Positions 1 through 18,096 of a stretch of DNA of 32,701 nt are shown piece after piece. This DNA is from a virus. Within the stretch, counting starts at the first letter, position 1, and every line of letters begins with the position of its first letter. The notes beneath the pieces are model-generated. The model did not search any database. It saw only the letters and a list, made by a program, of their open reading frames with translations, and was not told the origin of the DNA. The stretch is from the IMG/VR virus record IMGVR_UViG_3300013126_000130, positions 1-32,701 of that record. One strand, given 5' to 3'. The position numbers and the translations under genes are program-made.

Positions 1-120
1 ATGGGTTCTGGAACTACTAACCTTGCTTGTTTAAAATTAAATCGCAAATCTATTGGAATTGAAAAGGAAAAACAATATTACGATGTTGCAGTTCGGAGGC
101 TTTCTTCGTATTGTGGCTAA
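1..120 (+). CDS. DNA methyltransferase, C-terminal fragment (5' end outside window)
   Basis: The first 39 codons are open from the window edge to a TAA at 118-120. The fragment starts with GSGTT and continues with a segment ending IGIEKEKQYYDVAVRRL. This is the AdoMet-binding motif I (FxGSGTT) and following helix of N4-cytosine/N6-adenine DNA methyltransferases in which motif I lies near the C-terminus (beta-class order). The catalytic DPPY/SPPY motif must lie upstream, outside the window, so base specificity cannot be judged. In phages such enzymes commonly protect DNA from host restriction. The 3' end abuts the release-factor-like gene. The family call is strong; the role is inferred. Confidence 0.85.
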   Translation: MGSGTTNLACLKLNRKSIGIEKEKQYYDVAVRRLSSYCG

Positions 121-133
121 CGGCTACGGCTAT

Positions 134-340
134 GTGTTAGAAGAAAAGCTGAAGTCGATTGCGACTAACGAACACGAAGAAAAGGTACGGAATCGTCGAA
201 ACGATCAGATCGGAGAAGGAGGAAGGGGTTTAAGGAAGAGAACGTACCGGGTCGTTGACGGAACCGTGATAGATCATACAACGAATAAACAATGCAGATG
301 GAAGGACGTACAAAAGGGTAAGATTGATCTGCTAAAATAA
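134..340 (+). CDS. Release factor 1 C-terminal-like mini protein
   Basis: A 68-residue basic protein. Its second half (RNRRNDQIG, then RKRTYRV, IDH and KGKIDLL) follows the pattern of the segment after the GGQ domain in class I release factors: R-x-x-Q-I-G-x-G-x-R, RTYNF, VTDHR and a closing G-x-L-D-x-L. No GGQ motif is present, so it cannot hydrolyse peptidyl-tRNA by itself. I chose the GTG at 134, 13 nt after the methyltransferase stop; ATG at 83 or TTG at 53 would extend it into the methyltransferase. It could compete with or modulate host RF1, which is notable beside a UAG-reading tRNA, but this role is inference. It could also be a decayed gene remnant. Confidence 0.55.
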   Translation: MLEEKLKSIATNEHEEKVRNRRNDQIGEGGRGLRKRTYRVVDGTVIDHTTNKQCRWKDVQKGKIDLLK

Positions 341-348
341 CGACTGAA

Positions 349-690
349 ATGAAAATACTATTCCTCGATGACGATCACAATCGGATCGATGTCATCAAAA
401 AAAGATGGGACGCAAATCATGAACTGAGCATTGCAGAAAATGCGGCTGAAGCTATTGATCTGTTAAAAAAGATCAAATTTGACTTGGCGAGCTTGGATCA
501 CGATCTTGGAGGAAAGGTTTTTCAACAGAGCGGTAAGAATACGGGTTACGAAGTAGCTCAGTTCATAGCAAAGATGAAAGACCCTCCGCCGATAGTAATA
601 GTTCACTCTTGGAATTACGATGGAGCTCAGAACATGCTAGCTGAACTTCGTGGAGTAACTGAAACTGATTATCAGCCATTTGTTGTATAA
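349..690 (+). CDS. Receiver-like protein, cyclic-phosphate-processing (cREC) type
   Basis: A 113-residue single-domain protein with a receiver-like fold pattern: an N-terminal strand ending in three aspartates (residues 7-9, ILFLDDDHNR), a second acidic site SLDHDLGG (about 48-55), the helix GYEVAQFIA and then VIVHSWN (about 83-89). The LDHDLGG and HSWN signatures are those of the cREC family, proposed to act on cyclic phosphates in RNA repair systems rather than in two-component signalling. There is no DNA-binding output domain. It starts 8 nt after the release-factor-like gene. The phosphatase, RNA ligase and tRNAs nearby fit an RNA end-processing role, but that is inferred. Confidence 0.7.
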   Translation: MKILFLDDDHNRIDVIKKRWDANHELSIAENAAEAIDLLKKIKFDLASLDHDLGGKVFQQSGKNTGYEVAQFIAKMKDPPPIVIVHSWNYDGAQNMLAELRGVTETDYQPFVV

Positions 691-703
691 ATTTAGAAAG
701 AAC

Positions 704-1117
704 ATGATAAAAGCAACTAGAAATCAAATCTACAACGTTCACAACCATTACCAGGGAAAGACCAAGAAGGTCCTGTGTGCGTGCTCCGCTGGTCTGTTAA
801 GGTCAGCCACTCTCCAGAATTTTCTGATCAGAGAGTACGGTTACAACGTCAGAAACTGCGGAACCGACGAATCTTACGCACTAATCCCTATATCCGAAGC
901 TTTGGTTGAATGGGCAGACGAGATAGTTTTCGTCAATTCTCAGAATTACAACATGGTGAAGGAAGAGATCGAAAGTCTTGGAGCAACCGAAAAGTGCTAC
1001 GTTCTCAATATTCCGGACATTTACGCGTTTAACGATCCTGCTCTAGTAGACATCTGTAAGGAACAGTACGAGAGAATCGTTCTAACGAAAGTGGCTGGTA
1101 CTGCTGACGATAAATAA
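704..1117 (+). CDS. Low-molecular-weight protein-tyrosine-phosphatase-like protein
   Basis: A 137-residue protein. Residues 23-36 (VLCACSAGLLRSAT) contain the C-x5-R phosphate-binding loop (C27 to R33) of the LMW phosphatase/arsenate reductase fold, followed by the family pattern of a Y-N-V strand and NCGTDE. The general-acid DP motif normally near the C-terminus is not obvious (NDPALVD near 112-118 is a candidate). I chose ATG 704; TTG at 680 is the alternative. The product could act on phosphoproteins or on RNA phosphate ends as part of the neighbouring cluster. Its last codons, GAT AAA TAA, form a late-promoter-like motif. Confidence 0.7.
   Translation: MIKATRNQIYNVHNHYQGKTKKVLCACSAGLLRSATLQNFLIREYGYNVRNCGTDESYALIPISEALVEWADEIVFVNSQNYNMVKEEIESLGATEKCYVLNIPDIYAFNDPALVDICKEQYERIVLTKVAGTADDK
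1109..1117 (+). promoter_or_regulatory. Late-promoter-like motif GATAAATAA, overlapping a stop codon
   Basis: GATAAATAA is one base from the T4 late consensus TATAAATA(A) and reads Asp-Lys-stop of the upstream gene. The next ATG is only 4 nt away, so a transcript started here would be nearly leaderless. This spacing differs from the other late promoters in the window, so it may be fortuitous. Confidence 0.3.
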
Positions 1118-1121
1118 AGGT

Positions 1122-1298
1122 ATGAAACAATTCGTACCTAATTTTTCGGAATTTTCCAGAGTTTACGAGCAAGTTGCTAAAGAGGACGAGATTCTCAAAG
1201 GTGGAAAAGCGGACGACCAAGAGTTTCGTTTCGTTCGATCGGCTGATGTATTGGAAAAACAACAAGTGAAACCTTTTTCGGTAACCTTGTATAAATAA
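1122..1298 (+). CDS. Small protein with N-terminal capsid-targeting-like motif
   Basis: A 58-residue protein starting MKQFVPNFSEFSRVYEQ. The NFSEF segment resembles the short F-x-E/Q-F motif at the ends of several other proteins here (12142, 15655, 16372, 23478, 23993, 24783) and the N-terminal capsid-targeting sequence of T4 internal proteins (MKTYQEFI). The rest is charged and hydrophilic with no recognisable domain. The ATG lies 4 nt after the previous stop. Its last codons TAT AAA TAA double as a perfect late promoter. It may be a head-core or internal protein; this is inference. It is too short for confident family assignment. Confidence 0.6.
   Translation: MKQFVPNFSEFSRVYEQVAKEDEILKGGKADDQEFRFVRSADVLEKQQVKPFSVTLYK
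1290..1298 (+). promoter_or_regulatory. T4-type late promoter TATAAATAA
   Basis: A perfect TATAAATAA that also encodes Tyr-Lys-stop of the upstream small gene. A transcript starting a few bases downstream would cover the non-coding stretch and reach the terminator at about 1440, or read on into the tRNA and RNA ligase gene. Confidence 0.65.
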
Positions 1299-1386
1299 CC
1301 CAGAACGACGCTTAACAACGATATGAAATAGGTAACGAGACAAACACGCAAAACTGAAAGACCTCAGCGTTTCGCAGAGGCGACCC
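1299..1386 (+). other. Non-coding stretch, possible small RNA between late promoter and terminator
   Basis: No gene is visible between the stop at 1298 and the terminator stem beginning at 1387. The stretch has a compact hairpin at about 1366-1380 (CCTCAGCG, TTT, CGCAGAGG). Because a perfect late promoter sits at its left edge and an intrinsic terminator at its right, a discrete RNA of about 130-140 nt is possible. I do not recognise it. Confidence 0.3.
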
Positions 1387-1440
1387 AAACGGGCGCTAGC
1401 GTGACGTTCTCGATCAAGTTTATTAAAGGCGCCCGTTTTT
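1387..1440 (+). terminator. Intrinsic terminator with long loop
   Basis: A 10-bp perfect stem, AAACGGGCGC (1387-1396) pairing with GCGCCCGTTT (1429-1438), runs into a T tract. The loop is 32 nt, longer than usual. It sits directly before the initiator-type tRNA, so it may also shape tRNA processing. Confidence 0.65.
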
Positions 1441-1445
1441 TACAT

Positions 1446-1518
1446 CGCGGGGTGGCAGCAGAGGTAGCTCGCAAGGCTCATAACCTTGAGGTCGAAGGTT
1501 CGAATCCTTCTCCCGCAA
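1446..1518 (+). tRNA. tRNA-fMet-like (anticodon CAT), initiator type
   Basis: A full cloverleaf: acceptor CGCGGGG (1446-1452) with TCCCGCA (1511-1517), D arm, anticodon stem CAAGG/CCTTG, loop CTCATAA with anticodon CAT at 1479-1481, and T arm GAAGG-TTCGAAT-CCTTC. The first acceptor pair is the C1/A72 mismatch that marks bacterial initiator tRNA, and most of the rest matches initiator tRNA-fMet. It differs in having only two of the three G-C pairs in the lower anticodon stem (A-T at 29:41) and an extra C in the D stem. CCA is not encoded. The tRNA call is strong; its use as initiator is likely but unproven. Confidence 0.88.
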
Positions 1519-1570
1519 CACTTGTAGGTATCGCATCGGGCAAGTACTGGAATCTACCTACTATTTTTTT

Positions 1571-1599
1571 ACCTCATCCTGAAAAGGGTGAGGTTTTTT
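1571..1599 (+). terminator. Intrinsic terminator downstream of tRNA-fMet
   Basis: ACCTCATCCT (1571-1580), loop GAAA, AGGGTGAGGT (1585-1594; one G-T pair), then TTTTT. A weaker long-loop pairing (GTAGGTA near 1524 with TACCTAC near 1555) lies between it and the tRNA. It separates the tRNA from the RNA ligase gene starting at 1617. Confidence 0.8.
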
Positions 1600-1616
1600 A
1601 TTGGTACAATACTCTC

Positions 1617-2672
1617 ATGGAAACACCAGCACTATACTCACGGGACGATTTTAGGTCGCTAGTTTTTGCTCGCGATAATTACTCGTGTGTGATGTGCGGC
1701 AACCCGGCTAAGGACGCACATCACATCATAGAGCGTAGGCTGTTTTCAGACGGAGGTTATTACCTAGAAAACGGAGCTTCTCTGTGCGAGTACCACCACC
1801 TTGCAGCAGAAAGAACTACTCTATCGTGCAACGAGATTCGCAACAGTGCTGGTATAACTCAGATCGTCATACCTGATCACATGTACGATGATCTCCAATA
1901 CGATAAGTGGGGAAACATAATTCTGCCCAACGGCTTTAGATTGAGAGGTGAACTCTTTTACGACGAATCCGTTCAGAAAGTCCTATCAGAAGGGAACATG
2001 CTACACTTGTTTCAAAAGTACGTTAAGTACCCGAGAACGATGCACCTTCCTTGGAGCAATTTACTAAAGGATGACAGAATCTTGGCGAACGACGATCATT
2101 TTGTCGGAAAAAGAGTCATCGTTACCTTGAAGATGGACGGTGAGAACACGACCATGTACAACGATAAGATCCACGCACGTTCGTTAGACTCAGGAAGTCA
2201 CGAGACCAGGAATTGGGTGAAAGGCCTGTGGTCCAGAATCGGTTGGATGATCGACGATAACATGCGAATATGCGGAGAGAACCTCTACACTGTTCACTCA
2301 ATGAAGTATGACAACTTACCTTCATACTTCATGGTGTTTTCAGTTTGGATCGATAACACTTGCTTGGCCTGGGAAGAAACGACTGAGTACGCTCAGATCC
2401 TTGGACTGGAAACAGTTCCTGTGATCTATGACGGCATTTACGACAGAGAAGCTATCGAAAAAGCGTTTGCTCAGTACTCAGAAACTAATGAGGGTTACGT
2501 TGTCCGAATAGCTGACAGCTTCAACTACGGCGATTTCAGAAAGAGCATAGCCAAGTACGTTCGGCCGCAATTTAGGCAGGCGATCAACAATTCGCACGGA
2601 CACTGGATCTCAAAAAAAGTAGAAACTAATAAGCTGAAAAGTGACAGTTCAACGGAAAAAGTGGTACGTTAA
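1617..2672 (+). CDS. HNH domain fused to RNA ligase
   Basis: A 351-residue protein with two parts. Residues 10-65 look like an HNH/zinc-finger nuclease domain: VFARDNYSCVMCG (C24, C27), DAHHI (H35, H36), GASLCEYHHLAAE (C57, H60, H61). Residues about 160-320 carry nucleotidyltransferase ligase motifs: KMDGEN (motif I, predicted adenylylated Lys172), ENLY (221-224), EGYVVR (292-297), KYVR (313-316). The pattern fits Rnl2-like RNA ligases. ATG 1617 was chosen because it follows the tRNA and terminator; the open frame upstream runs through the tRNA. It may repair RNAs cut by host anticodon nucleases, or cut and reseal RNA. The ligase part is confident and the HNH part likely; the combination is unusual. 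Confidence 0.85.
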   Translation: METPALYSRDDFRSLVFARDNYSCVMCGNPAKDAHHIIERRLFSDGGYYLENGASLCEYHHLAAERTTLSCNEIRNSAGITQIVIPDHMYDDLQYDKWGNIILPNGFRLRGELFYDESVQKVLSEGNMLHLFQKYVKYPRTMHLPWSNLLKDDRILANDDHFVGKRVIVTLKMDGENTTMYNDKIHARSLDSGSHETRNWVKGLWSRIGWMIDDNMRICGENLYTVHSMKYDNLPSYFMVFSVWIDNTCLAWEETTEYAQILGLETVPVIYDGIYDREAIEKAFAQYSETNEGYVVRIADSFNYGDFRKSIAKYVRPQFRQAINNSHGHWISKKVETNKLKSDSSTEKVVR

Positions 2673-2806
2673 ACTTCACTAAGCAATTTTGCACCACAAT
2701 AACAAAAAAATCAAACAAGATGAAGTAGAGCATTAGAAGTCCTGTCGGAGTTTTTGAATCTCAAGCTGTTAATTCACAAAATTCACAACAAAAAAATTCA
2801 AAAACA

Positions 2807-3106
2807 ATGACAACAAAAGACTTAAAATCGGAAATCAAAGCCCTCGCAGAAAAGCAGAGGCAGACCAAGGAACAGAGAAAAACTGTAAACTTCAAGGGAA
2901 CACGTTCTTTGAATCCTAAAGACGCGCAGCTTTTAGCGCTCGAACAGAAAAGCCAACTCAAGCACATGTACATCGCGTACGCTCTGCTCAGAGGCAAATC
3001 TATAGAGACGGCTATCAACCCGGAAACTGAGTATTCACAAAGAAAGGTTGACGAAATCATGGCGAAGTATGCAGAAGCTGTTTGTGTTAGTGAGAACGGA
3101 TCTTAA
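2807..3106 (+). CDS. Hypothetical small basic protein
   Basis: A 99-residue, lysine- and glutamine-rich, mainly helical protein. Residues 5-30 look coiled (LKSEIKALAEKQRQTKEQRK). No domain is recognised. It follows a 134-nt A-rich gap with no promoter motif I can identify; the leader before the ATG (AAAAAAATTCAAAAACA) has no Shine-Dalgarno sequence. Its 3' end overlaps the start of the Pth2-like gene by 38 nt, which suggests translational coupling. Confidence 0.7.
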   Translation: MTTKDLKSEIKALAEKQRQTKEQRKTVNFKGTRSLNPKDAQLLALEQKSQLKHMYIAYALLRGKSIETAINPETEYSQRKVDEIMAKYAEAVCVSENGS

Positions 3107-3362
3107 GGGATCCAGCCCAGCCGTACAGGCTGGCCACGCCGTCGCGCAGTGGATGATTGATCATCCGAACACCTGGGAAAACGAAACCCTGGTCTACCTA
3201 AACGTCGGTTCAAAGTTCGACCTGCACAAGTGGATCTCAAAAATTTACTACAAAGACTTGGATTTCTCAATTTTCAAAGAACCTGACCTTGATCACGAAG
3301 CAACAGCGATCGCTTGTTTAACCGATAAACGCAACATCTTCAGCAACCTTCCGCTCCTGTGA
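3069..3362 (+). CDS. Pth2-like peptidyl-tRNA hydrolase family protein
   Basis: A 97-residue protein starting MQKLFVLVRTDLKGSSPAVQ followed by AGHA. The L-V-R-T-D-L-K ... AxQxxHA pattern is the N-terminal signature of the Pth2 (archaeal/eukaryotic-type) peptidyl-tRNA hydrolase fold. Near the C-terminus FKEPDLDHEATAIA matches the family's E-P-D-L ... T-A-I-A strand. If active it would release peptides from stalled peptidyl-tRNA, fitting the tRNA and RNA-repair theme of the region. The start is inside the preceding gene (38 nt overlap). The stop codon lies in the stem-loop of a terminator. Family likely; activity inferred. Confidence 0.72.
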   Translation: MQKLFVLVRTDLKGSSPAVQAGHAVAQWMIDHPNTWENETLVYLNVGSKFDLHKWISKIYYKDLDFSIFKEPDLDHEATAIACLTDKRNIFSNLPLL

Positions 3363-3380
3363 GCGGAAGGTTTCCTTTTA
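3345..3380 (+). terminator. Intrinsic terminator overlapping the Pth2-like stop codon
   Basis: A 12-bp perfect stem, AACCTTCCGCTC (3345-3356), loop CTGT, GAGCGGAAGGTT (3361-3372), then TCCTTTT. The TGA stop of the upstream gene is inside it. Its presence supports the start of the next gene at 3392 rather than at an upstream codon within the stem. Confidence 0.8.
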
Positions 3381-3391
3381 ACAAGAAAAAC

Positions 3392-3814
3392 ATGGACACT
3401 TACTTAGATCATAAAAACGTAGTCAAGAGACTAGTTGACGAGTACCGATTTCACGAAGGTTTGGTCGTAGCGTACGATTTTGACAACACTGTGTACGATT
3501 ATCGCAAAAAGGGAGACACTTACGACATGGTAGTTGACCTACTAAGAACGTTGGAAAAAGTTCCTGGAATAAGCTTTGTTGTTTGGACCGGAACTGCTAA
3601 CGAACGCCACGATTTTGTTAGAGCCTATCTTCAAGCGAACGACATTCCGTACCATACGATAAACGAGAACCCATCTTTCTTCAAATCTTCGAGTAGAAAG
3701 ATCTTTTACAGCATCCTTCTCGATGATAGAGCTGGTTTAGTCTCAGCGTACAATGCCCTGGTTGACTTTTTGAACGAAATTGGGGTACAGTATTTTTACA
3801 AAGAAAGATCATGA
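3392..3814 (+). CDS. HAD-superfamily phosphatase
   Basis: A 140-residue protein. VVAYDFDNTVYDY (about 25-37) is HAD motif I with the nucleophile Asp29 and Asp31; FVVWTGT is motif II; RKIFYSILLDDRAGL carries the motif IV acidic pair DD. There is no sizeable cap domain, consistent with small phage HAD phosphatases acting on nucleotides, nucleic-acid ends or proteins. I chose ATG 3392 because a terminator lies just before it. The substrate cannot be read from the sequence; the neighbouring RNA ligase and tRNAs make a polynucleotide-end phosphatase plausible. Confidence 0.78.
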   Translation: MDTYLDHKNVVKRLVDEYRFHEGLVVAYDFDNTVYDYRKKGDTYDMVVDLLRTLEKVPGISFVVWTGTANERHDFVRAYLQANDIPYHTINENPSFFKSSSRKIFYSILLDDRAGLVSAYNALVDFLNEIGVQYFYKERS

Positions 3815-3858
3815 AAAAGTCCGTAAAAGTTTTAGTAGTTGGCGAAACTTTCGATTAA
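3811..3858 (+). CDS. Tiny ORF or gene remnant (15 aa)
   Basis: An ATG overlapping the HAD gene stop (ATGA) opens a 15-codon frame, MKKSVKVLVVGETFD, ending TAA just before the suppressor tRNA. The K-V-L-V-V-G-E start is typical of the first strand of a Rossmann-type enzyme, so it may be the leftover 5' end of a gene replaced by the tRNA and terminator. It could equally be a meaningless short frame. Confidence 0.25.
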   Translation: MKKSVKVLVVGETFD

Positions 3859-3861
3859 ATT

Positions 3862-3933
3862 GGGTTTGTAGTTCAGCGGTAGAACGGCGGTCTCTAAAAC
3901 CGTTAGTCGGGGGTTCGACTCCCCCATTCCCTC
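3862..3933 (+). tRNA. Amber-suppressor tRNA (anticodon CTA), Trp-like body
   Basis: D arm GTTC-AGCGGTA-GAAC, anticodon stem GCGGT/ACCGT, loop CTCTAAA with anticodon CTA at 3894-3896, variable TAGTC, and T arm GGGGG-TTCGACT-CCCCC are all well formed. CTA reads UAG. The body, especially TGTAGTTCA and the CGGTCTCxAAAACCG anticodon arm, resembles tRNA-Trp with CCA changed to CTA, as in the classic E. coli Su7 suppressor. The acceptor stem is poor: GGG/CCC pairs but TTT faces TT or TC. CCA is not encoded. A terminator follows immediately. The anticodon reading is clear; charging and function are uncertain because of the acceptor stem. Confidence 0.72.
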
Positions 3934-3935
3934 AG

Positions 3936-3960
3936 AAGCCTGAACCACTCAGGCTTTTTT
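3936..3960 (+). terminator. Intrinsic terminator after suppressor tRNA
   Basis: AAGCCTGA (3936-3943), loop ACCAC, TCAGGCTT (3949-3956), then TTTT. It ends the accessory block before the glycosyltransferase. Confidence 0.85.
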
Positions 3961-3986
3961 AGTATAAGAGCGAAAAGTTACATTAG

Positions 3987-5855
3987 ATGTCTAAGAACAG
4001 GATAGCTCTAATCCAAGTATGGTTCGGTAAGCTTCCCAGCTATTTCGAGTACCACCACTCAACCTGCCTAAACCAGAGAATCGATTTTTACTTTTTCACC
4101 GACCAAGAAGTCGACAAAAAGTTCGAAGCTGAAAACGTAAAATTCTTCAAGATCACGCCGAGAGACGTTCAGCAGAGATTGTTCGACAGAACAAAAAGAC
4201 CTCTAGTAATCCCGTCAGCTTACAAGCTCAACGATATTAAGCCTACTTATCCGGACCTTTTTCGAGAGTATGTGAAGGATTACGAGTTCGTTGGTTGGTA
4301 CGATATTGACACTTTGCTTGGAGATGTTGCTTCCTGGATGGAACCTTATCTTGACGAGTTTGACGTGATCTCCTTCGGAGAGAACGGTCCAATTTACAAT
4401 CGCATCTCTGGACCTTTGGCGATAACTCGAAACACCGAAAAAGTTAGAACAGTTTACCTAAATGATCCAACCTTTTACGAGTGCATGTCAAAACCAGACT
4501 ACGACGAGTACGACGAGAGGAAGATAACCGAAACTTACGAAAAGCTAGGGATTCATGTGAAGGTCATGTTTGACTGTTCTAACATGGACCCGATCAGCTA
4601 CAAGATCAAGTTTGACGCACTTTGGACTGGCGGGAAAGTGTACGTTGGCGGAGTAGAAAAGATGATCTACCACTTCTTCAGAAAGAAGCACACTGAGTTC
4701 AAGAGAAGGGGCCAAGCGATCGTAGCTAGGAGAAAAGTGGAGTACTTGGACGATTTCTACTACATCACATACTTCACGCAGAGTTACGAGCCGACCGCTA
4801 GAACTCTGATCAGCACGATAGAAAAGTTCTCGAGAAGAAGGTGCATTTTGTACACGGTGAACTATTCGTCCACGTTAGTTCACGAGCTATCCGATCAATT
4901 CGTAGTTAGGCGGATAGACATCACAGGCAGGGATTTTCTTGACAAGCGCGGGCGCAGCTTCAACACGATCACTTCCAAGCCGGTCATTCAACTCGACTCA
5001 CTTACTGCTTTTCCAGGAAAGAAGTTCGTGTTCCTTGACACCGACATTTACATCACGGTAGGCATGGATTCGATAGCTAAGTACTTCAACCAGCTGGAAA
5101 ATTACCCCTTGACGAATTCCCACGTGCACGACGTCATCTACAGCATAGAAGATAACGGCGACCGCGTTAGTTCGTTGCACGCTCTTGGCGACGAGATAGG
5201 TGTTCCTGTTAGAATATTTCCTAGACGAAAGACCAACGTGATGCTATACGACGAAAGGTCAGCGTGGTTCTTCAAAGAGCAGATGGACATCTACAACGAG
5301 CACAAGGATTCGACCAGGAGGTCCATCTTTAAGTTTCACGATGAGGACACATTCAACATCATACTGTCAAAGTACGACCTCCCTAAAGCCCTCCCAGTAG
5401 TGGACATTGAGGAATCGTTCGACATAAACCTAAACATTTACGATAATTACACTTACAACTGCTGTCCAATATCTGACAAAGCAATCGTTCCGAAAACTGA
5501 TCGTGACGTTTACGTGTTTCATGGTTACAAGAGTCCGGAAGTTTTTCAGCAAGTCGAAGACACCTACGGCTCTACTGTTCTTGATAAAACCGACATGATC
5601 GTCGAGTACGACGGGAAGGACGTTGTTCTGATAAAAACATCGTTTCTCAAGGAGAAAAGGATCGAACCGAAAGTAAACGTCATTCTGAAGGACGATGATG
5701 CCGAAATATTTAGGTGTGGTTGGGAAATATTCAACTCTCAGCTGTTCTTCATCTGGGGAATTCACTTACAGAATCGCAAGACCTACTTGGTAGAACTGAC
5801 CGAACAGGGAACTGACCGTTTAATTTTCAGGACCGAGCTGATCACAAACTACTGA
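3987..5855 (+). CDS. Two-domain glycosyltransferase
   Basis: A 622-residue protein. Residues about 1-210 start IALIQVWFGKLPSYFEYHH, with FYFFTD and, at about 105-115, FVGWYDIDTLLGD. This is the D-x-D-bearing pattern of a GT-A-like family found in polysaccharide clusters (DUF6625-like as I recall it). Residues about 250-500 form a second sugar-transferase-like domain with FVFLDTDIYIT (D-x-D near 350) and a GT8-like layout. The C-terminus is a beta-rich tail. In phages such enzymes modify virion proteins, DNA or host surface sugars; the target is unknown. The next gene encodes a lectin-like virion protein, a possible substrate. It may be expressed from an upstream unit; AGTATAAG near 3961 is a weak promoter candidate. 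Confidence 0.8.
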   Translation: MSKNRIALIQVWFGKLPSYFEYHHSTCLNQRIDFYFFTDQEVDKKFEAENVKFFKITPRDVQQRLFDRTKRPLVIPSAYKLNDIKPTYPDLFREYVKDYEFVGWYDIDTLLGDVASWMEPYLDEFDVISFGENGPIYNRISGPLAITRNTEKVRTVYLNDPTFYECMSKPDYDEYDERKITETYEKLGIHVKVMFDCSNMDPISYKIKFDALWTGGKVYVGGVEKMIYHFFRKKHTEFKRRGQAIVARRKVEYLDDFYYITYFTQSYEPTARTLISTIEKFSRRRCILYTVNYSSTLVHELSDQFVVRRIDITGRDFLDKRGRSFNTITSKPVIQLDSLTAFPGKKFVFLDTDIYITVGMDSIAKYFNQLENYPLTNSHVHDVIYSIEDNGDRVSSLHALGDEIGVPVRIFPRRKTNVMLYDERSAWFFKEQMDIYNEHKDSTRRSIFKFHDEDTFNIILSKYDLPKALPVVDIEESFDINLNIYDNYTYNCCPISDKAIVPKTDRDVYVFHGYKSPEVFQQVEDTYGSTVLDKTDMIVEYDGKDVVLIKTSFLKEKRIEPKVNVILKDDDAEIFRCGWEIFNSQLFFIWGIHLQNRKTYLVELTEQGTDRLIFRTELITNY

Positions 5856-5862
5856 TAAATAA
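5854..5862 (+). promoter_or_regulatory. Late promoter GATAAATAA
   Basis: GATAAATAA starts within the stop codon of the glycosyltransferase and ends 17 nt before ATG 5880, the spacing seen at most late promoters in this window. Confidence 0.6.
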
Positions 5863-5879
5863 GAATAAAGTAGCGGATC

Positions 5880-6851
5880 ATGTCAACTTACCAAGCCAGA
5901 CCTTTTGCAATCGGAGACATCGGTGCAGGCGGGATAGCCTATTACAACATGTCGATAGGCGAACCGAACCTTAATTACGATGAACTTCCTGGTGGGTTGA
6001 CGTGGTACATGGAACCAAACGAGATACCCGGGTTCATCATAGCTTTGTAGAACGGAGCTGAACCGACATTCTTTAGGTCCACTAATAAGACTGATGCTAG
6101 CTACCTTTCGCTACTACAATCTCTATACAAGAGCAGCACAGGATTGGAACCTGGCACAACGATACCCTGGTTCGACACGTTCCTTTCTACCAACAGCCTG
6201 TACACTTCTTACGAGGTCAGCGGGTCGATGAGCTTCACTGGAACTGGAACGTGTTACGGAGAAGTAGCCAGCGCTACCGACCTTCTCCCAGGAACGAATG
6301 ATTTTACAGTTGAATGGTTCCAGAAACAGAGCTTAGGTTCGGATTTTCCTAGAGTATTTCAGTTCGGTGCATGGCCTTCAGGATTCGGCACAAGCTCGAA
6401 AAGCGGAGCAATCTATTTTTGGTACAACGGGCAGTACATATTCAGAGGCTTGCCTACCTGGCAGGATGAGTGGATCCACATAGCGATATGCCGTTACAAG
6501 AATTACGTGAGGATATTTCACAACGACACTCAGCTTGGAGCAGCGGCTTACATACCGGACAACATCACTGATACTGAAACTGTTATGCATTTGGGAATCG
6601 ACCCTGGATACGCTTCTACCACTTACTTCACCGAGTTGATAAGCAACTTTCACGTAAATCCAACTGTTGCAAAATACTGGGAAAACTTTTCTGCGCCGAC
6701 ATCAGGATTGAACATATCTTACGATTCTCACCTTCTTTTGAGAGCATCAACCAACGGTTCTCTTCTAACCGATTCCAGTCCAATCGGAATGACTGTAACT
6801 ACTGCTGGATCAACACCTATAGCTTGGAGCTCAGATAAACCTTTCGTCTAA
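5880..6851 (+). CDS. Lectin-like (LamG/ConA fold) virion protein with in-frame UAG at codon 57
   Basis: Reading from ATG 5880 gives 324 codons in one frame, interrupted only by TAG at 6048-6050 (codon 57), in the context PGFIIAL-UAG-NGAEPTFFRST. The downstream part continues in the same frame to TAA 6851 and contains a jelly-roll lectin pattern: FTVEWFQK, FGAWPS, IYFWYNGQYIF, WIHIAICRYKNYVRIFHNDTQ. Such LamG/ConA-like domains are common in phage tail fibres and head decorations. A late promoter precedes ATG 5880 at the standard distance. Read as Trp by the nearby CTA tRNA the segment would be IALWNG; the only difference from TGG is one base. Without suppression, translation would yield a 56-residue peptide, or restart at an internal codon such as ATG 6229. 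A sequencing error or strain mutation remains possible. Confidence 0.75.
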
Positions 6852-6857
6852 TTGGAG

Positions 6858-6866
6858 TATAAATAA
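6858..6866 (+). promoter_or_regulatory. T4-type late promoter TATAAATAA
   Basis: Perfect TATAAATAA between the lectin-like gene and the gene at 6916; the leader would be about 43 nt, longer than at other late promoters. It would drive the putative lysis region. Confidence 0.7.
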
Positions 6867-6915
6867 CTAGACCGATCACCGCATTTTTTAGTAGGTTAGC
6901 CCAAACTATCGACTA

Positions 6916-7269
6916 ATGTGCGAAGACGAAACTATTAACAGAACCATAATGAAGTTGTTTCGCCAATTCAAACTGGGGAACACTCTTCACACTTGCAAGT
7001 ACAGAATAGATAAGGAACTTGTAAAGCGGGCTAACCTTGGAGAACGCGCTCTCGACGAGCTCGTTCGCACAGAGATCTCTCGCGTTTTAGCTGAGCAGAT
7101 CGTAAATCAGCACAGATCGGAAATTAGTTCCGTCGAAGACGAAGAATTCGTCGAGTACGGAGGCCGGCTCATGGTCATAGGTCTAAAAGACTTCAAGACC
7201 GTGGTCGAAGCGGCCATCCAAATGCTGCCGGAAGAACAAATAACAAAAATAAGAAATGGACAATCCTAA
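6916..7269 (+). CDS. Hypothetical helical protein
   Basis: A 117-residue, charged, mostly helical protein with no signal or membrane segment and no domain I recognise. It contains ERALDELVRTEISRVLAEQI, followed by an acidic stretch (SSVEDEEFVEYGG) and a C-terminal helix. It is the first gene after a perfect late promoter and overlaps the next gene (membrane protein, 7256) by 14 nt, so the two are likely translated together. A virion-assembly role would fit the late timing, but nothing in the sequence shows it. Confidence 0.75.
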   Translation: MCEDETINRTIMKLFRQFKLGNTLHTCKYRIDKELVKRANLGERALDELVRTEISRVLAEQIVNQHRSEISSVEDEEFVEYGGRLMVIGLKDFKTVVEAAIQMLPEEQITKIRNGQS

Positions 7270-7588
7270 AGTAATTTTTCAAAATGCTGAAGAGTGGGTA
7301 AAGAAACTATTCAAAGGTCTAGGAAATGCCCTAGTAATAGCAATCGTTCTAGTAGTTGGTTTTTTCATCGGTTACTACTATTATGTTTTCACCAACAAAC
7401 CTGTTCAAGAATCACCTCTCGGAAACGTTAAGACTCTGAGAGAAACCTCAGTTGCGGTGAACGAACAAAGCGAACTCATGATCATAGATCGCTCTACTGG
7501 AAACTACACTGTGTACTGCGATTCGGTTGGTACAGCAATCTTCAACGTTTACGCTAACCAAAAATACCAGGAAGCAGTAAAACCATGA
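7256..7588 (+). CDS. Single-pass membrane protein, possible holin or spanin-type
   Basis: A 110-residue protein with an amphipathic N-terminus and one strong membrane segment at about 27-47 (ALVIAIVLVVGFFIGYYYYVF). The rest is a soluble domain of about 60 residues. By charge (lysines before the segment) the C-terminus probably faces the periplasm. It overlaps the next gene, a membrane-anchored lytic transglycosylase, by 4 nt (ATGA). That pairing suggests a lysis role such as holin, pinholin or inner-membrane spanin, but no family signature confirms it. Confidence 0.7.
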   Translation: MDNPKVIFQNAEEWVKKLFKGLGNALVIAIVLVVGFFIGYYYYVFTNKPVQESPLGNVKTLRETSVAVNEQSELMIIDRSTGNYTVYCDSVGTAIFNVYANQKYQEAVKP

Positions 7589-8091
7589 TACGCGCGAAAT
7601 TAATCATATTTCTAGCGTCGCTAATGCTATTAGGCGCAGTCTGGTCTTATGAAACGACCAAAGTAACCCAAAAAAAGATACAGACGGTTGGAACGCCTAT
7701 TAGCAAGGGACCTCTAAGCATCAGAATGTACGATTACTTGGTTGAATACTCGGAAAAGTACGAGGTACCTCTTCAAATAGCACTCGGAATAGCTGAAGCA
7801 GAAACCGGGTACGAGGGACCGTTTCACTGGGACTACAATCCAGCTAGAGTTTCCAGCGCTGGGGCGTGCGGAGCAATGCAGATACTTCCATCAACCGCAA
7901 CCTACATTTACGGTGAACGAGTAACGAAAGATCAACTCCTTACTGACCTTGAGCTTAACGTTGAAATCTCAATGAAGTACATGGCGTACCTTTACAAGAT
8001 GTCAAAGCGTTGGGACATCGCTCTTGGGTACTATAACACAGGCACACCAGTAGTCAACAGCTACGCGATGCGCATCATGAAAAACACCTAG
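7585..8091 (+). CDS. Membrane-anchored lytic transglycosylase (SLT domain), probable endolysin
   Basis: A 168-residue protein. Residues 5-20 form an N-terminal signal or signal-anchor segment (KLIIFLASLMLLGAVW). Residues 48-165 are an SLT goose-lysozyme-like domain: ALGIAEAETGY with the predicted catalytic Glu near 73, SSAGACGAMQILPSTA (about 90-105), then ALGYYNTGTPVVNSY. It cleaves peptidoglycan between N-acetylmuramic acid and N-acetylglucosamine. An N-terminal export segment would let it reach the periplasm without a holin (SAR-like), or it may be a virion-associated or host-modifying enzyme. Its stop is TAG, one of few TAG stops here; UAG readthrough would add 24 codons ending at TAA. 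Confidence 0.85.
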   Translation: MIRAKLIIFLASLMLLGAVWSYETTKVTQKKIQTVGTPISKGPLSIRMYDYLVEYSEKYEVPLQIALGIAEAETGYEGPFHWDYNPARVSSAGACGAMQILPSTATYIYGERVTKDQLLTDLELNVEISMKYMAYLYKMSKRWDIALGYYNTGTPVVNSYAMRIMKNT

Positions 8092-8096
8092 AACAA

Positions 8097-8429
8097 ATGG
8101 CTGATTTTTGCACGCAGTGTTCAGCTGCAACGTTTGGAGATAAAACACAGCCTGACATAAACATCAGGGAAACCGCTGCTTCTTTGAAAAACGGAACTTA
8201 CGTTCCTGTCCTGTGCGAAGGCTGCGGAATGAACGCAATCGGAAAGGATGAAAACGGGCAAGTACTCGTTAACATTCCCGAAAATATCAGAGACGACAGT
8301 TGTGAAACATACGTGTGGGTTCCTCTAGAAGATTTCGAAAAGGACCACCTAACTAAGTACTGGTACCATGCGTCTGAACACCAACAATTGTTAACAGAAA
8401 GTGAAACAATTTCACCCCAAGTAGTATAA
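8097..8429 (+). CDS. Hypothetical protein with paired CxxC motifs
   Basis: A 110-residue protein. FCTQCS (C5, C8) and LCEGCG (about C39, C42) form two CxxC pairs that probably bind one zinc. The sequence DFCTQCSAATFG resembles a small family often seen in phages and without assigned function. It starts 5 nt after the transglycosylase stop and shares its transcript. Its stop codon TAA is part of the promoter-like motif GTAGTATAAT. Confidence 0.72.
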   Translation: MADFCTQCSAATFGDKTQPDINIRETAASLKNGTYVPVLCEGCGMNAIGKDENGQVLVNIPENIRDDSCETYVWVPLEDFEKDHLTKYWYHASEHQQLLTESETISPQVV

Positions 8430-8430
8430 T
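8421..8430 (+). promoter_or_regulatory. Promoter element GTAGTATAAT
   Basis: One of three exact copies of GTAGTATAAT in the window (also 12727 and 16524), each 29-40 nt before an ATG. It contains a -10-like TATAAT with an upstream GTAG extension; no shared -35 box is evident. It precedes the 516-residue orphan gene by 29 nt. Confidence 0.6.
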
Positions 8431-8459
8431 ACTGCGACGGTTTCGACGAGTTCGAACCG

Positions 8460-10010
8460 ATGTTCGACAAGAAGATCTCAACCGGTCTCACCGGTGGCAA
8501 GAAAGTTGTCGTCGACGTTGAGTCGGACCTTTACGATTTCGCTTTCTCAGTCACTCCGTCCGGTGGTGTTGTCCTGTACAACATTGACAACGGAAAGATC
8601 ATGGTGAGCGAAGACGTTGACCAGGTTTACTACTTCTCATCCAAACCTCTCGGTACCTCCGTCCTTCCGGACAATTCTGCCCTCTATGCAGCGGTTTACG
8701 TCCTGTCAGACAAACTTCTCAACGATGATGCCGAACGGATGTTCAACATGCTGAGCGACCCGTACCACTACCGCATGCTCGCAAACGCTTTCGGAAAGCA
8801 GAAGCTCAATGCCTTCAAAGCTGCTGTGGCTGAATGCGTCGTTGACGTTACGAAGAGGTTCCCTGAAGGAGTCTTCCCAATCACCAGAGTTGACGACCAT
8901 GCGTACTGCGTCATGGATCTGATCAACGACCTTGGCGAGATGGACAACAAATTCTTCCCTGGCCACTCGGAATTCAATTACAACCGCATTGGCCGCAAGC
9001 GCGTTACCGCGGTTAACGAAGCCGGCGAACCTGAACAGATCGAAGCAAAGTTCGTTCAGACCGACCCGAACCCTGGTTACGCTCTCACCAGCCTTGTCTG
9101 GAATGAGAGTCGCGCAAACCTTTCGGTTCTGTGTCGCATTGAAGGAACTGTTGAACTGCCAGCTAATGAGCACAACATCACTTCGGTCCCATCGTTCAAG
9201 TACAGAGCTTACACTCTCATCAAGGACGGTATTCTCAACATCACCAAACTTCCGGTGAATTACACGAAGGAACTGTACGACCTGCTGCTCAGCCGCGGAA
9301 TCACAGCTGAGATTCAGGAAGATTACATCATCCTTGACCTTGGCAGCCTTCCTCTCGTGAACAGAGCGATGGTCCAGAACTGTTCAGCTAACGATCTGGC
9401 TCGCCAGGAATGGGAACTGATCAAGCTTCAGGGTCGCAAAAAAGTTTACGATTACTACAGGAAGAATCTCTTCCCGAAGGAAAGCAAATCGTACGCTGAC
9501 ACCTACGGTCAGGAAGCAGCAGAATGGTTAAAGCAGAACGGCATCACCGACTACAACGGTTTTGCTCCGAAAATGACAGCCGCTGAATCCACCGACTTCT
9601 ACATGTCAGTCAACCTGTTCACTAAGGTGAAAGGTCTGTCGTCCTTACCGAAAGTTGAGGACGTGATTGCCAACATAGCAAAAGGACCTATCTCCAAACC
9701 ATCTGAATGGGTAATGGCTGTCGCTATCGAAGAGTACAACCAGCAGATCAACTCTCCGCTCTTCATGAGCATGAAACCGGAAGATCAGCAGAAAGCTCTT
9801 CAGAATTACATCATCACGAAGTCTGACGAACTTAACAAAGCTCGTCGGGCAGCTCTACGCGAAATCGCGAAGACCAAGTTCTCCCTCATCCTTTCGAAGA
9901 AATGGTTCAAGGAGTTCAAGACCTTCGACGAGAACAAACTCACTCTCTTCCTGGACGGTCACCAGTTGGACTTCACTTTCGAAATGACCGAAAAGGCTGA
10001 GCAGATTTAA
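8460..10010 (+). CDS. Orphan 516-residue protein, probably highly expressed
   Basis: I do not recognise this protein. It has no signal peptide or membrane segment. The N-terminal part is beta-rich (KVVVDVESDLYDFAFSVTPS). The middle has helical and strand segments (TSLVWNESRANLSVL), and the C-terminal third is helical and charged (around SDELNKARRAALREIAKTKF). It is monocistronic, with a GTAGTATAAT promoter upstream and a strong terminator 20 nt after the stop. Its codon choice is visibly different from its neighbours: more CTC, CTG, ATC, CGC and GTC and few AGA and ATA codons, as expected of an abundant protein. The promoter is not of the late type, so an early or middle abundant protein is more likely than a capsid protein. 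Function unknown. Confidence 0.85.
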   Translation: MFDKKISTGLTGGKKVVVDVESDLYDFAFSVTPSGGVVLYNIDNGKIMVSEDVDQVYYFSSKPLGTSVLPDNSALYAAVYVLSDKLLNDDAERMFNMLSDPYHYRMLANAFGKQKLNAFKAAVAECVVDVTKRFPEGVFPITRVDDHAYCVMDLINDLGEMDNKFFPGHSEFNYNRIGRKRVTAVNEAGEPEQIEAKFVQTDPNPGYALTSLVWNESRANLSVLCRIEGTVELPANEHNITSVPSFKYRAYTLIKDGILNITKLPVNYTKELYDLLLSRGITAEIQEDYIILDLGSLPLVNRAMVQNCSANDLARQEWELIKLQGRKKVYDYYRKNLFPKESKSYADTYGQEAAEWLKQNGITDYNGFAPKMTAAESTDFYMSVNLFTKVKGLSSLPKVEDVIANIAKGPISKPSEWVMAVAIEEYNQQINSPLFMSMKPEDQQKALQNYIITKSDELNKARRAALREIAKTKFSLILSKKWFKEFKTFDENKLTLFLDGHQLDFTFEMTEKAEQI

Positions 10011-10030
10011 TCATACATCTCCTTTCTTTG

Positions 10031-10065
10031 GACCGGGACGGCCCTAAACGTCCCGGTCTTTTTTT
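10031..10065 (+). terminator. Strong intrinsic terminator
   Basis: A 10-bp perfect stem, GACCGGGACG (10031-10040), loop GCCCTAAA, CGTCCCGGTC (10049-10058), followed by seven T. It ends the transcript of the orphan 516-residue gene. Confidence 0.92.
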
Positions 10066-10099
10066 GAACCAAGGAACGGTTGTGGCCGTACCATAAAAG

Positions 10100-10336
10100 A
10101 TGAATAAAACTATGAGTCAACGATCACATGCATACCAGCTCACACGAGATGTGACCCAGGAAGAATGCCCATGGTTGGGTAGAGACTTCAAAAAAGGCGA
10201 GACCGTTTTTGAGTACTTGCAGTACACTTACGGCTGTATAAGCCCTAGCGGAAAAGCTTTTACCGAGATTTTCGACAAAACTCCATTCTTCGAACTTCCA
10301 ATAGATTCTGTCGACCAGGAAGATCAATGCGGCTAA
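10100..10336 (+). CDS. Hypothetical small protein
   Basis: A 78-residue soluble protein with YQLTRDVTQEECPWLGRDFK, then YTYGCISPSGKAF and TPFFELP. This looks like a small uncharacterised phage protein family; I know no function for it. Two in-frame ATG codons (10100 and 10112) could start it. It stands between the terminator at 10031 and the helicase gene, with 52 nt before the latter. Confidence 0.65.
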   Translation: MNKTMSQRSHAYQLTRDVTQEECPWLGRDFKKGETVFEYLQYTYGCISPSGKAFTEIFDKTPFFELPIDSVDQEDQCG

Positions 10337-10388
10337 TCCTTTCGAAACTCAATCGAATTGGTTAGTAAAAATTAGCAAAGAATTCCAA

Positions 10389-12116
10389 ATGACGGATCTG
10401 AAAAAAGAGTTCGAACAGTTCGTTCAAACAAAGCACCCAACACTACAGTTCAGGCCTCAGCAAAAAGAGGTCATAATCGACATACTCGAAGCCTACTTTG
10501 AGGATCCGGACGGCATTTACCTGTTGGACGCTCCGACTGGGTCAGGAAAGTCAATCATCGCTATGGTAGCCGCTGACTTTCTCATTCACAAGGGAAAACG
10601 TGGCTACATACTCGCTTCGGATCTCGTCCTTCACCAGCAGTACGTCAACGATTTCAGAAGAATGCAACTTTGGAACTGGGGAAACGTGAAGGGCGTTGAT
10701 AATTACGCGTGTGCAGTAAACGGAGAAAGATTTTCGATCGGAGATTGCAAGAGCAAGGGAATGTCGTACCAAGCGGCAGAATCCCTACCGTGTTTCAAGC
10801 ACTGCGGCTATCTGATGGCAAGAAGAAAATCGATACGCTCGCCGTTAGCTCTTCTCACCTACCCTTACGCGCTCATCCAAAGAAATTACGTCGAAGAAAA
10901 GCAGACTACTCCACCGTTTCCGAAGAGAGATTTTGTAGTCTGTGATGAAGCTCACAAGATACTGGACATCGTTCAAGGTCACTTCAGCCCGTTAGTCTCG
11001 CATGACATCTACAAGAAAGTCGAAAGATTATCAGACGGCTTGTTCGACATAGGTTTGAAGAGACCGAAGATCGACATAAATCGTCTAGAGCGGTTGGTCA
11101 AGGACATCTATGCCGAAGAAGATCACGACGTTCTTCTGACTTTGATGAAAGAAGTAGAAAAGATACTCGAAAGTTTGGTTTCTTCAGTCGGTGATATTCG
11201 AGAGATTGCAGGTAAAGAGTTCGGCGAAGAAGATGTGCCACGAGAGTGGATAAAAGTGTTCAACCTTTACGACTGGTGCAAGGACTGTCACTGCAAGATA
11301 GAAGATTATTGCGACATAATAGACCAAGTTGGAGTCAGCAAGATGGTAAAAAATCCAGGCGAGAAAAGCATAGCTTTCAACTGCATCGACGAATACTACT
11401 TGCTAGGAAAGCACTTCTTCAACCAGTTTGGGTTCAAACTGCTAATGACAGCAACAGTAGGCAACCCAACCGATTTCATGAAGAATCACGGAATAAAGAA
11501 CGCAAGGTACTTCAAGATGGATTCTCACTTCAAGTGGGATAACTCACCTATCATTTACTACCCAGGAAAGAAGATGTCAGCTCGGCACTTAGAAGATAAC
11601 TTCGAATGGGGTGTTAAGACTCTATCCCAAATCCTAGCTACACACCCAGACGATTCAGGCATCATACACACTGGTTCTTATGAACTTGGGCAAAAATTGT
11701 GGCAGGCCCTTCCTAAAGAGGTCAGGAAGAGGGTCCTTCTTTACAAAGGTTCTGAGGAAAAGGACGTCATGTTGAAGAAGATGAAGAAGAAGAGGGGAAC
11801 TGTTCTCATGGGGCCTTCACTGCTTGAAGGTTTGAACCTAATCGACGACCTTTCTCGGTTTCAGGTGTTCATGAAGGTACCTTACCCTCACCTTGGTGAT
11901 AAGTACGTTGCAGCAAAGCTCAAATTCTCGCAAAAATGGTACAACTGGAAGACTTCCATATCAGTCTTACAAGGAACTGGCCGATCTATACGAACTCCGG
12001 ACGATTGGGCAGTCACTTATTTGGTAGATGGGTGTTTTTCTGATCTTTTTCAAGTAGCCGGTGATCAATTTCCGGTAGAATTCAGATCTCGAGTAAAGGT
12101 GGAATTCAAAAGGTAA
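10389..12116 (+). CDS. DinG/Rad3-like superfamily 2 helicase with putative Fe-S cluster
   Basis: A 575-residue protein. RPQQKEVI (Q-like motif), LLDAPTGSGKS (Walker A, 46-56), VVCDEAHK (DEAH, 183-190), LMTATVG (motif III), and near the C-terminus GTVLMGPSLLEGLNL and LQGTGRSIRTPDDW (motif VI). Between Walker A and DEAH are four cysteines (about 108, 120, 135, 139) in the place of the Fe-S cluster of XPD/DinG helicases. These unwind DNA 5' to 3'. In T4 the repair helicases (UvsW, Dda) belong to other groups, so this is an unusual enzyme for a T4-like phage. It may act in repair or recombination. The gene ends in a late-promoter-like sequence. Confidence 0.88.
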   Translation: MTDLKKEFEQFVQTKHPTLQFRPQQKEVIIDILEAYFEDPDGIYLLDAPTGSGKSIIAMVAADFLIHKGKRGYILASDLVLHQQYVNDFRRMQLWNWGNVKGVDNYACAVNGERFSIGDCKSKGMSYQAAESLPCFKHCGYLMARRKSIRSPLALLTYPYALIQRNYVEEKQTTPPFPKRDFVVCDEAHKILDIVQGHFSPLVSHDIYKKVERLSDGLFDIGLKRPKIDINRLERLVKDIYAEEDHDVLLTLMKEVEKILESLVSSVGDIREIAGKEFGEEDVPREWIKVFNLYDWCKDCHCKIEDYCDIIDQVGVSKMVKNPGEKSIAFNCIDEYYLLGKHFFNQFGFKLLMTATVGNPTDFMKNHGIKNARYFKMDSHFKWDNSPIIYYPGKKMSARHLEDNFEWGVKTLSQILATHPDDSGIIHTGSYELGQKLWQALPKEVRKRVLLYKGSEEKDVMLKKMKKKRGTVLMGPSLLEGLNLIDDLSRFQVFMKVPYPHLGDKYVAAKLKFSQKWYNWKTSISVLQGTGRSIRTPDDWAVTYLVDGCFSDLFQVAGDQFPVEFRSRVKVEFKR

Positions 12117-17575: not shown

Positions 17576-18096
17576 AAGTGATATTCGTGGACATCGACGG
17601 GCCGCTATCTTATGGAACCTGGGACGATGGGTCGGTGAAAATCTCCGAAGACCTCACGATACCGTACGGTTGGGAAAAGGACCAGTGCGAAGTTTTAGCA
17701 GAGATAATCACAGAAACCGATGCTAAGGTCATTGTCAGCTCTGACTGGAAGAAACACTTCACAGTGGATCAACTAAATTCGGTATTCGAGCACTACGGCA
17801 TTCCTCCGGTCGTGATAGGGGTAACAGATACTCAAAAAGCCAAGATTAGTTCCTGGCTTGACATGGACAGAGCTTACCAGATAGCACGGTGGCTACAGCA
17901 GAACCACGAATCTGTCGAAGAATGGATCGCGATAGATGATCTTAACTTGGGACGGTGGTTCGAAGAGATGACTGAAGAGTACCCGTACATAACGAAAAAT
18001 CACCACGTGTGGGTATTCGGCGATTGGGCAGAGGTAAACACCAGGTTGTCTGACTGCGCCGACAAAATAATCAATCACCTAAATGGAAGACACTAA
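17572..18096 (+). CDS. HAD-superfamily protein
   Basis: A 174-residue protein with KVIFVDIDGPL (motif I, Asp7 and Asp9), AKVIVSSDWKKH (motif II region) and EEWIAIDDLNL (motif IV acidic pair). This pattern matches the HAD group found in phages and RNA-repair operons (VDIDGVL-SSDWR-IDD). The activity is likely phosphatase; the substrate is unknown. It is coupled to its neighbours by overlaps at both ends. Confidence 0.8.
   Translation: MKVIFVDIDGPLSYGTWDDGSVKISEDLTIPYGWEKDQCEVLAEIITETDAKVIVSSDWKKHFTVDQLNSVFEHYGIPPVVIGVTDTQKAKISSWLDMDRAYQIARWLQQNHESVEEWIAIDDLNLGRWFEEMTEEYPYITKNHHVWVFGDWAEVNTRLSDCADKIINHLNGRH

Follow-up and report, generated by a model that had tools for sequence, protein, structure and literature searches.

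A candidate target gene for an amber tRNA in a phage with the standard genetic code

The window analysed here, i.e., the whole 32,701-nucleotide stretch of the IMG/VR virus record IMGVR_UViG_3300013126_000130, carries a tRNA gene with the amber anticodon CTA and, 2.1 kb downstream of it, an adhesin-like gene with an in-frame TAG. The features needed for the argument are the following, with the evidence for each given after it:

1446..1518 (to 1519 by ARAGORN), plus strand: tRNA with anticodon CAT, initiator-like (ARAGORN, Rfam)
3861..3933, plus strand: tRNA with the amber anticodon CTA (ARAGORN, RF00005, fold, acceptor comparison)
3934..3960, plus strand: terminator-like hairpin (10 bp, 3934-3958) followed by a U run (fold z-score)
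3987..5855, plus strand: DUF6625-containing gene (Pfam PF20330; 60% identical in the related phage G010)
5880..6851, plus strand: adhesin-like virion gene, the candidate target (homologues on both sides of the TAG, neighbourhood, Laminin_G_3, PHROG, fold match)
6048..6050, plus strand: in-frame TAG, codon 57 of the adhesin-like gene (sequence; 42 homologues)

The window is identical over positions 1-11,852 to IMG/VR record 3300013125_000003 (131,445 bp), from which its last 2.7 kb differ by one base, at 31993, and it forms the start of the 131-kb contig that was used for the genetic code and gene counts. Half of the phage genome is absent from the data, and contig-wide counts cover these 131 kb. 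The genes for a portal, a head-closure protein, a primase, and a DNA polymerase mark a large T4-like myovirus. Lak megaphages of Prevotella are among the named relatives of the portal protein, at about 35% identity, and it is from this kinship only that we infer a Bacteroidota host. A relative of the portal is encoded in 189 stretches of the viral collection, some of them on contigs of 250-271 kb. The 131-kb contig has only two tRNAs (CAT and CTA), and three relatives on contigs of 252-270 kb have 19, 24, and 26, none of them with the anticodon CTA.

Both tRNAs lie within an accessory island together with an HNH/RNA-ligase gene, a probable PTH2-like gene, and a HAD gene, a cluster of translation-related genes that is suggestive, no more. 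The DUF6625 gene between the CTA tRNA and the adhesin-like gene is the conserved neighbour that places the island. We read the CAT tRNA as initiator-like, given its C1 x A72 mismatch, and a similar CAT tRNA is found in the same island of G010 (54771-54845), which is among the closest relatives (84% portal identity) and has neither the CTA tRNA nor the adhesin-like gene at this place. The left edge of the island (134-340) is a 5'-truncated RF1-like fragment containing prfA domain 3 without the GGQ part; the G010 copy of this fragment is longer (101 aa, prfA 64 bits). Positions 135-689 share 90% DNA identity with G010, well beyond the 64-77% seen in the other long matches, so the left edge was probably exchanged recently. 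Bases 1-117 resemble the end of a DNA methyltransferase. The HNH/RNA-ligase gene (1635-2672) joins an HNH-like part at the N terminus to an RNA ligase domain (phrog_24030, PF09414) within one gene, and the ORF at 3048-3362, beside both tRNAs, is a candidate PTH2-like peptidyl-tRNA hydrolase (PHROG hydrolase 5e-11; Pfam PTH2 only 0.08).

The first-pass annotation described a phage tRNA with the anticodon CTA and well-folded D, anticodon, and T arms, and this description holds. ARAGORN calls a CTA tRNA at 3861-3933, and Rfam RF00005 agrees at 3862-3932 with a covariance score of 53.3 bits (E 6.4e-9), above rather than below the gathering cut-off of 29. The anticodon sits in the 7-base loop CTCTAAA, and the isolated strand folds, at minimum free energy, into a cloverleaf in which the D, anticodon, and T stems are complete and the acceptor stem is reduced to 3 bp, the outer pairs. 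The total fold energy is about that of shuffled sequence and not better (z -0.3). Directly 3' of the tRNA lies the terminator-like hairpin, for which none of 200 shuffles was equally stable (z -3.8); a scan for terminators of the consensus type did not have this 3934-3960 hairpin among its calls.

The acceptor stem, which had already been described as poorly paired, is truly abnormal. Its 5' strand GGGUUUG faces either AUUCCCU or CAUUCCC, depending on register, and this one-base ambiguity sits at the junction of the acceptor and T stems. Four of seven pairs form according to ARAGORN and five of seven according to the Rfam alignment, the latter with a 6-base T loop, i.e., neither gives a seven-pair stem. 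By ARAGORN counts, all 269 comparison tRNAs (101 from related phages, 100 viral amber tRNAs, and 68 bacterial tRNAs) have at least five. In addition, no CCA is encoded in the DNA. The poor acceptor suggests that the tRNA is weakly charged or lost its activity recently, and it is the strongest argument against present activity of the tRNA. The earlier suggestion that the tRNA is decayed or edited survives in its first half, decay being plausible; for editing, we found no Thg1-like enzyme of 5' acceptor repair in the 131-kb contig, nor was a CCA-adding enzyme found there. A protein resembling a CCA-adding enzyme is encoded in the related phage G023 (C1:177878-178294; PF01743, E 6e-16).

The first-pass annotation also saw a body resembling tRNA-Trp, made amber by the same single change as in the E. 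coli suppressor Su7. The resemblance is real, in that the best whole-length match among a panel of 710 tRNAs is a tRNA-Trp(CCA) of Tissierellia-type Firmicutes (81%) with an identical D arm (17/17). It is also partial, as the acceptor matches at 62% only and the isotype ranking is biased towards Trp, because the genome-scan pattern with which the nearest tRNA-Trp genes were fetched contained the anticodon loop. Outside the anticodon arm, many other isotypes are at least as close as the tRNA-Trp found in relatives of the phage. Furthermore, at least 119 viral stretches contain the anticodon arm CGGTCTCTAAAACCG, on tRNAs whose acceptor stems are very different and unrelated, so that this arm alone is no mark of Trp descent. 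The comparison with Su7 fails where a single change is concerned: the CTA tRNA differs from the nearest tRNA-Trp at about 19% of positions, its discriminator is U or C by register and not G73, and a CCA end is missing from the DNA. The tRNA is therefore no one-base copy of the Su7 kind. It remains like Su7, a tRNA-Trp with CUA, in having a Trp-like body and an amber anticodon, and it is unlike Su7 in these differences and in its damaged acceptor. ARAGORN printed the name tRNA-Pyl for it, and tRNA-Pyl does share the CUA anticodon; this identity was rejected, as the D and T loops are normal (GG and TTC, respectively) and no PylS match was found in the contig.

The adhesin-like gene, for which the first-pass annotation had no entry as a candidate target, runs from the ATG at 5880 to the TAA at 6851 and comprises 323 codons if UAG is read, with no second stop or frameshift among them. 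Homology continues across the stop, which is one criterion for a functional readthrough gene: proteins of the related phages G012, G013, and G023 align on either side of TAG 6048, and none of 42 further viral loci from a search with the N-terminal domain has a stop in that domain. G012, G013, and G023 share the gene order of the window here: a small membrane gene and a transglycosylase gene follow closely downstream of the adhesin-like gene, perhaps after one or two intervening genes. The viral collection yielded no close homologue of the gene, and the 42 homologues without the stop are distant ones. AlphaFold predicts an N-terminal domain with confidence over residues 1-110 (10-residue means of 69-92 pLDDT), which spans codon 57; confidence is low afterwards. 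Matches of the C-terminal part are Laminin_G_3, at the Pfam cut-off, and PHROG virion structural families. In viral fold comparisons the protein resembles a GLEYA adhesin-domain protein and, less strongly, a ConA-like lectin; a fold search against the PDB gave no match. The homologues combine the same N domain with different C domains, which we read as PA14-like and LamG-like, and such a combination is expected of exchangeable adhesins.

The proteins of relatives aligned to the 131-kb contig cover 82% of it, and within this aligned part we judged TAG 6048 to be the only convincing in-frame stop within a conserved gene. The in-frame TAGs of G001 at 49461, 127542, and 129513 were set aside as unconvincing, being short or opposite long genes; from filtered HSPs, its stop at 8427 was judged to be an alignment crossing a gene boundary and that at 18081 an antisense ORF. 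Separately, the viral locus L338 has a UCA-anticodon tRNA with weak acceptor ends (ARAGORN, 2011-2083) about 420 bp upstream of its orthologous adhesin gene.

Because the gene is broken by exactly the codon that the tRNA, 2 kb away, is predicted to read, the two may work together as a stop-codon switch for one gene. The first-pass annotation had proposed to look for the tRNA in related phages; seven relatives that were scanned have no CTA tRNA, and the exact arm is absent from 24, so both oddities are peculiar to this phage among those examined. We tentatively favour gene-specific UAG decoding of the adhesin-like gene, active now or until recently, at somewhat less than even chances. As we infer its action, the tRNA would be transcribed, trimmed, given CCA, and charged with an amino acid by a host synthetase, and would then compete with host RF1 at UAG. 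Decoding of codon 57 would yield the 323-residue adhesin-like protein, with most of the protein length gained, and the timing would be such that full protein appears only after the tRNA has accumulated, at a reduced level. A narrower form of this proposal, which we consider rather doubtful, is that the weak acceptor keeps suppression low and thereby spares normal UAG stops, the adhesin being full-length only once the tRNA accumulates.

Gene-specific decoding is favoured by a tRNA that passes both ARAGORN and Rfam with three intact stems and a terminator-like hairpin next to it, by one stop in a conserved gene whose 42 homologues are stop-free there and whose confidently modelled part spans the codon, and by the two oddities lying 2.1 kb apart while ordinary terminating TAGs would give short extensions only. 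Against it stand an acceptor worse than that of any of the 269 comparison tRNAs, the roughly one-in-three chance that a random nonsense mutation gives TAG, a single target in a single genome with no close homologue for a selection test, no RNA readthrough structure found at TAG 6048, and the missing half of the genome.

Given the damaged acceptor, tRNA and gene could instead both be decaying, the one a pseudo-tRNA and the other an adhesin pseudogene with a chance TAG, in a fast-changing accessory region. We regard this as a serious rival, nearly as likely as gene-specific decoding; the two were placed by weighing the co-occurrence of tRNA and stop against the chance of a TAG, the lack of a close homologue, and the acceptor. 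Joint decay would account for an outlying acceptor with four or five of seven pairs, the register slip at the acceptor/T junction, and the missing CCA, and the setting suits it, with an accessory island whose left edge was recently exchanged and holds a truncated RF1-like gene. Nevertheless, the D, anticodon, and T arms are undamaged, although neutral decay should soon have reached them as well, the 323 codons contain neither a further stop nor a frameshift, no other convincing broken gene was seen in the aligned part of the contig, and the stop is TAG rather than TAA or TGA.

A functional tRNA to which the adhesin TAG is unrelated, serving to read ambers of the host or a competing phage or to tolerate amber mutations anywhere in the phage, seems improbable. 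In its favour, amber tRNAs are widespread in viral loci that appear to use the standard code: of 102 loci of 4 kb or more that carry the amber anticodon arm of the CTA tRNA, 42 fall into this group, while 32 appear recoded and 28 are unclear, a rough classing by coverage from short loci that replaced a version by mean ORF length (13/102 recoded), which was too strict. XacN1 has two amber tRNAs for which readthrough in silico revealed no target (PMC5852040). Such a purpose would leave the single in-gene TAG close by unexplained, and the state of the acceptor stem argues against full activity. Other amber-tRNA loci were also scanned for isolated stops within genes (8 TAG, 5 TGA, 2 TAA), but this result was dropped as support for gene-specific decoding, since at least five of the seven loci with TAG hits look recoded (L003, L035, L105, L114, L120) and the status of L088 and L091 is unclear.

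The start or end of a genome-wide TAG reassignment, as in Lak phages, is very improbable, despite the portal kinship with Lak (about 35% identity) and TAG being the rarest stop. The phage uses the standard code. The contig has 124 ORFs of at least 70 aa covering 96.6% of it, of which 99 end in TAA, 17 in TGA, and 8 in TAG. If TAG is taken as sense, coding density rises to only 97.7% (0.966 to 0.977), while calling a phage TAG-reassigned (code 15) takes a rise of at least 5-10% (PMC10879173). Relatives without the CTA tRNA have equal TAG shares (about 4-11%), and the TAG-ending genes that align well to relatives stop where those stop, mostly with TAA or TGA there; readthrough of the eight TAG-ending ORFs would add 0 to 68 residues. 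On TAG counts, relatives' shares, gene ends, and density we reject genome-wide recoding for the available half of the genome, where reassignment is close to refuted.

An assembly or sequencing error behind the TAG or the odd acceptor is very improbable even for a metagenome contig, as the window equals the second IMG/VR record over 1-11,852, though the assembly may be shared, with one base differing at 31993.

Many phages carry amber tRNAs, whether or not they are recoded (PMC5852040, PMC8504454, PMC10879173, PMC11210395), so the class to which the CTA tRNA belongs is already known; the new element is a candidate target gene for such a tRNA in a standard-code phage. We found no published case in which a phage of standard code combines an amber tRNA with one conserved gene broken by a single amber, in literature mostly outside subscription journals, which is weak evidence of novelty. 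The locus bears on the question of why standard-code phages carry amber tRNAs and offers a concrete pair of tRNA and target, testable in the laboratory; if the link is true, it shows how stop-codon reassignment could begin, gene by gene.

Like the standard-code jumbo phages XacN1 and RsoM2USA, this large myovirus encodes a CTA tRNA, and CBB and GAP32 are the nearest named DNA matches. Unlike XacN1, it has one conserved gene broken by a single amber, and its acceptor is far poorer than those of amber tRNAs in standard-code jumbo phages. With code-15 phages (Lak megaphages, crAss-like phages) it shares an amber tRNA and, for Lak, distant portal kinship, but not genome-wide TAG reassignment. The other viral match to the pattern of D arm and anticodon arm is an amber tRNA on a contig of 607 kb (L047:4091-4178); it has a long variable arm, a perfectly paired acceptor (GGGGATG/CATTCCC), and a CCA. 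A 'tRNA-SeC' in locus L308 looks like a misread ordinary tRNA.
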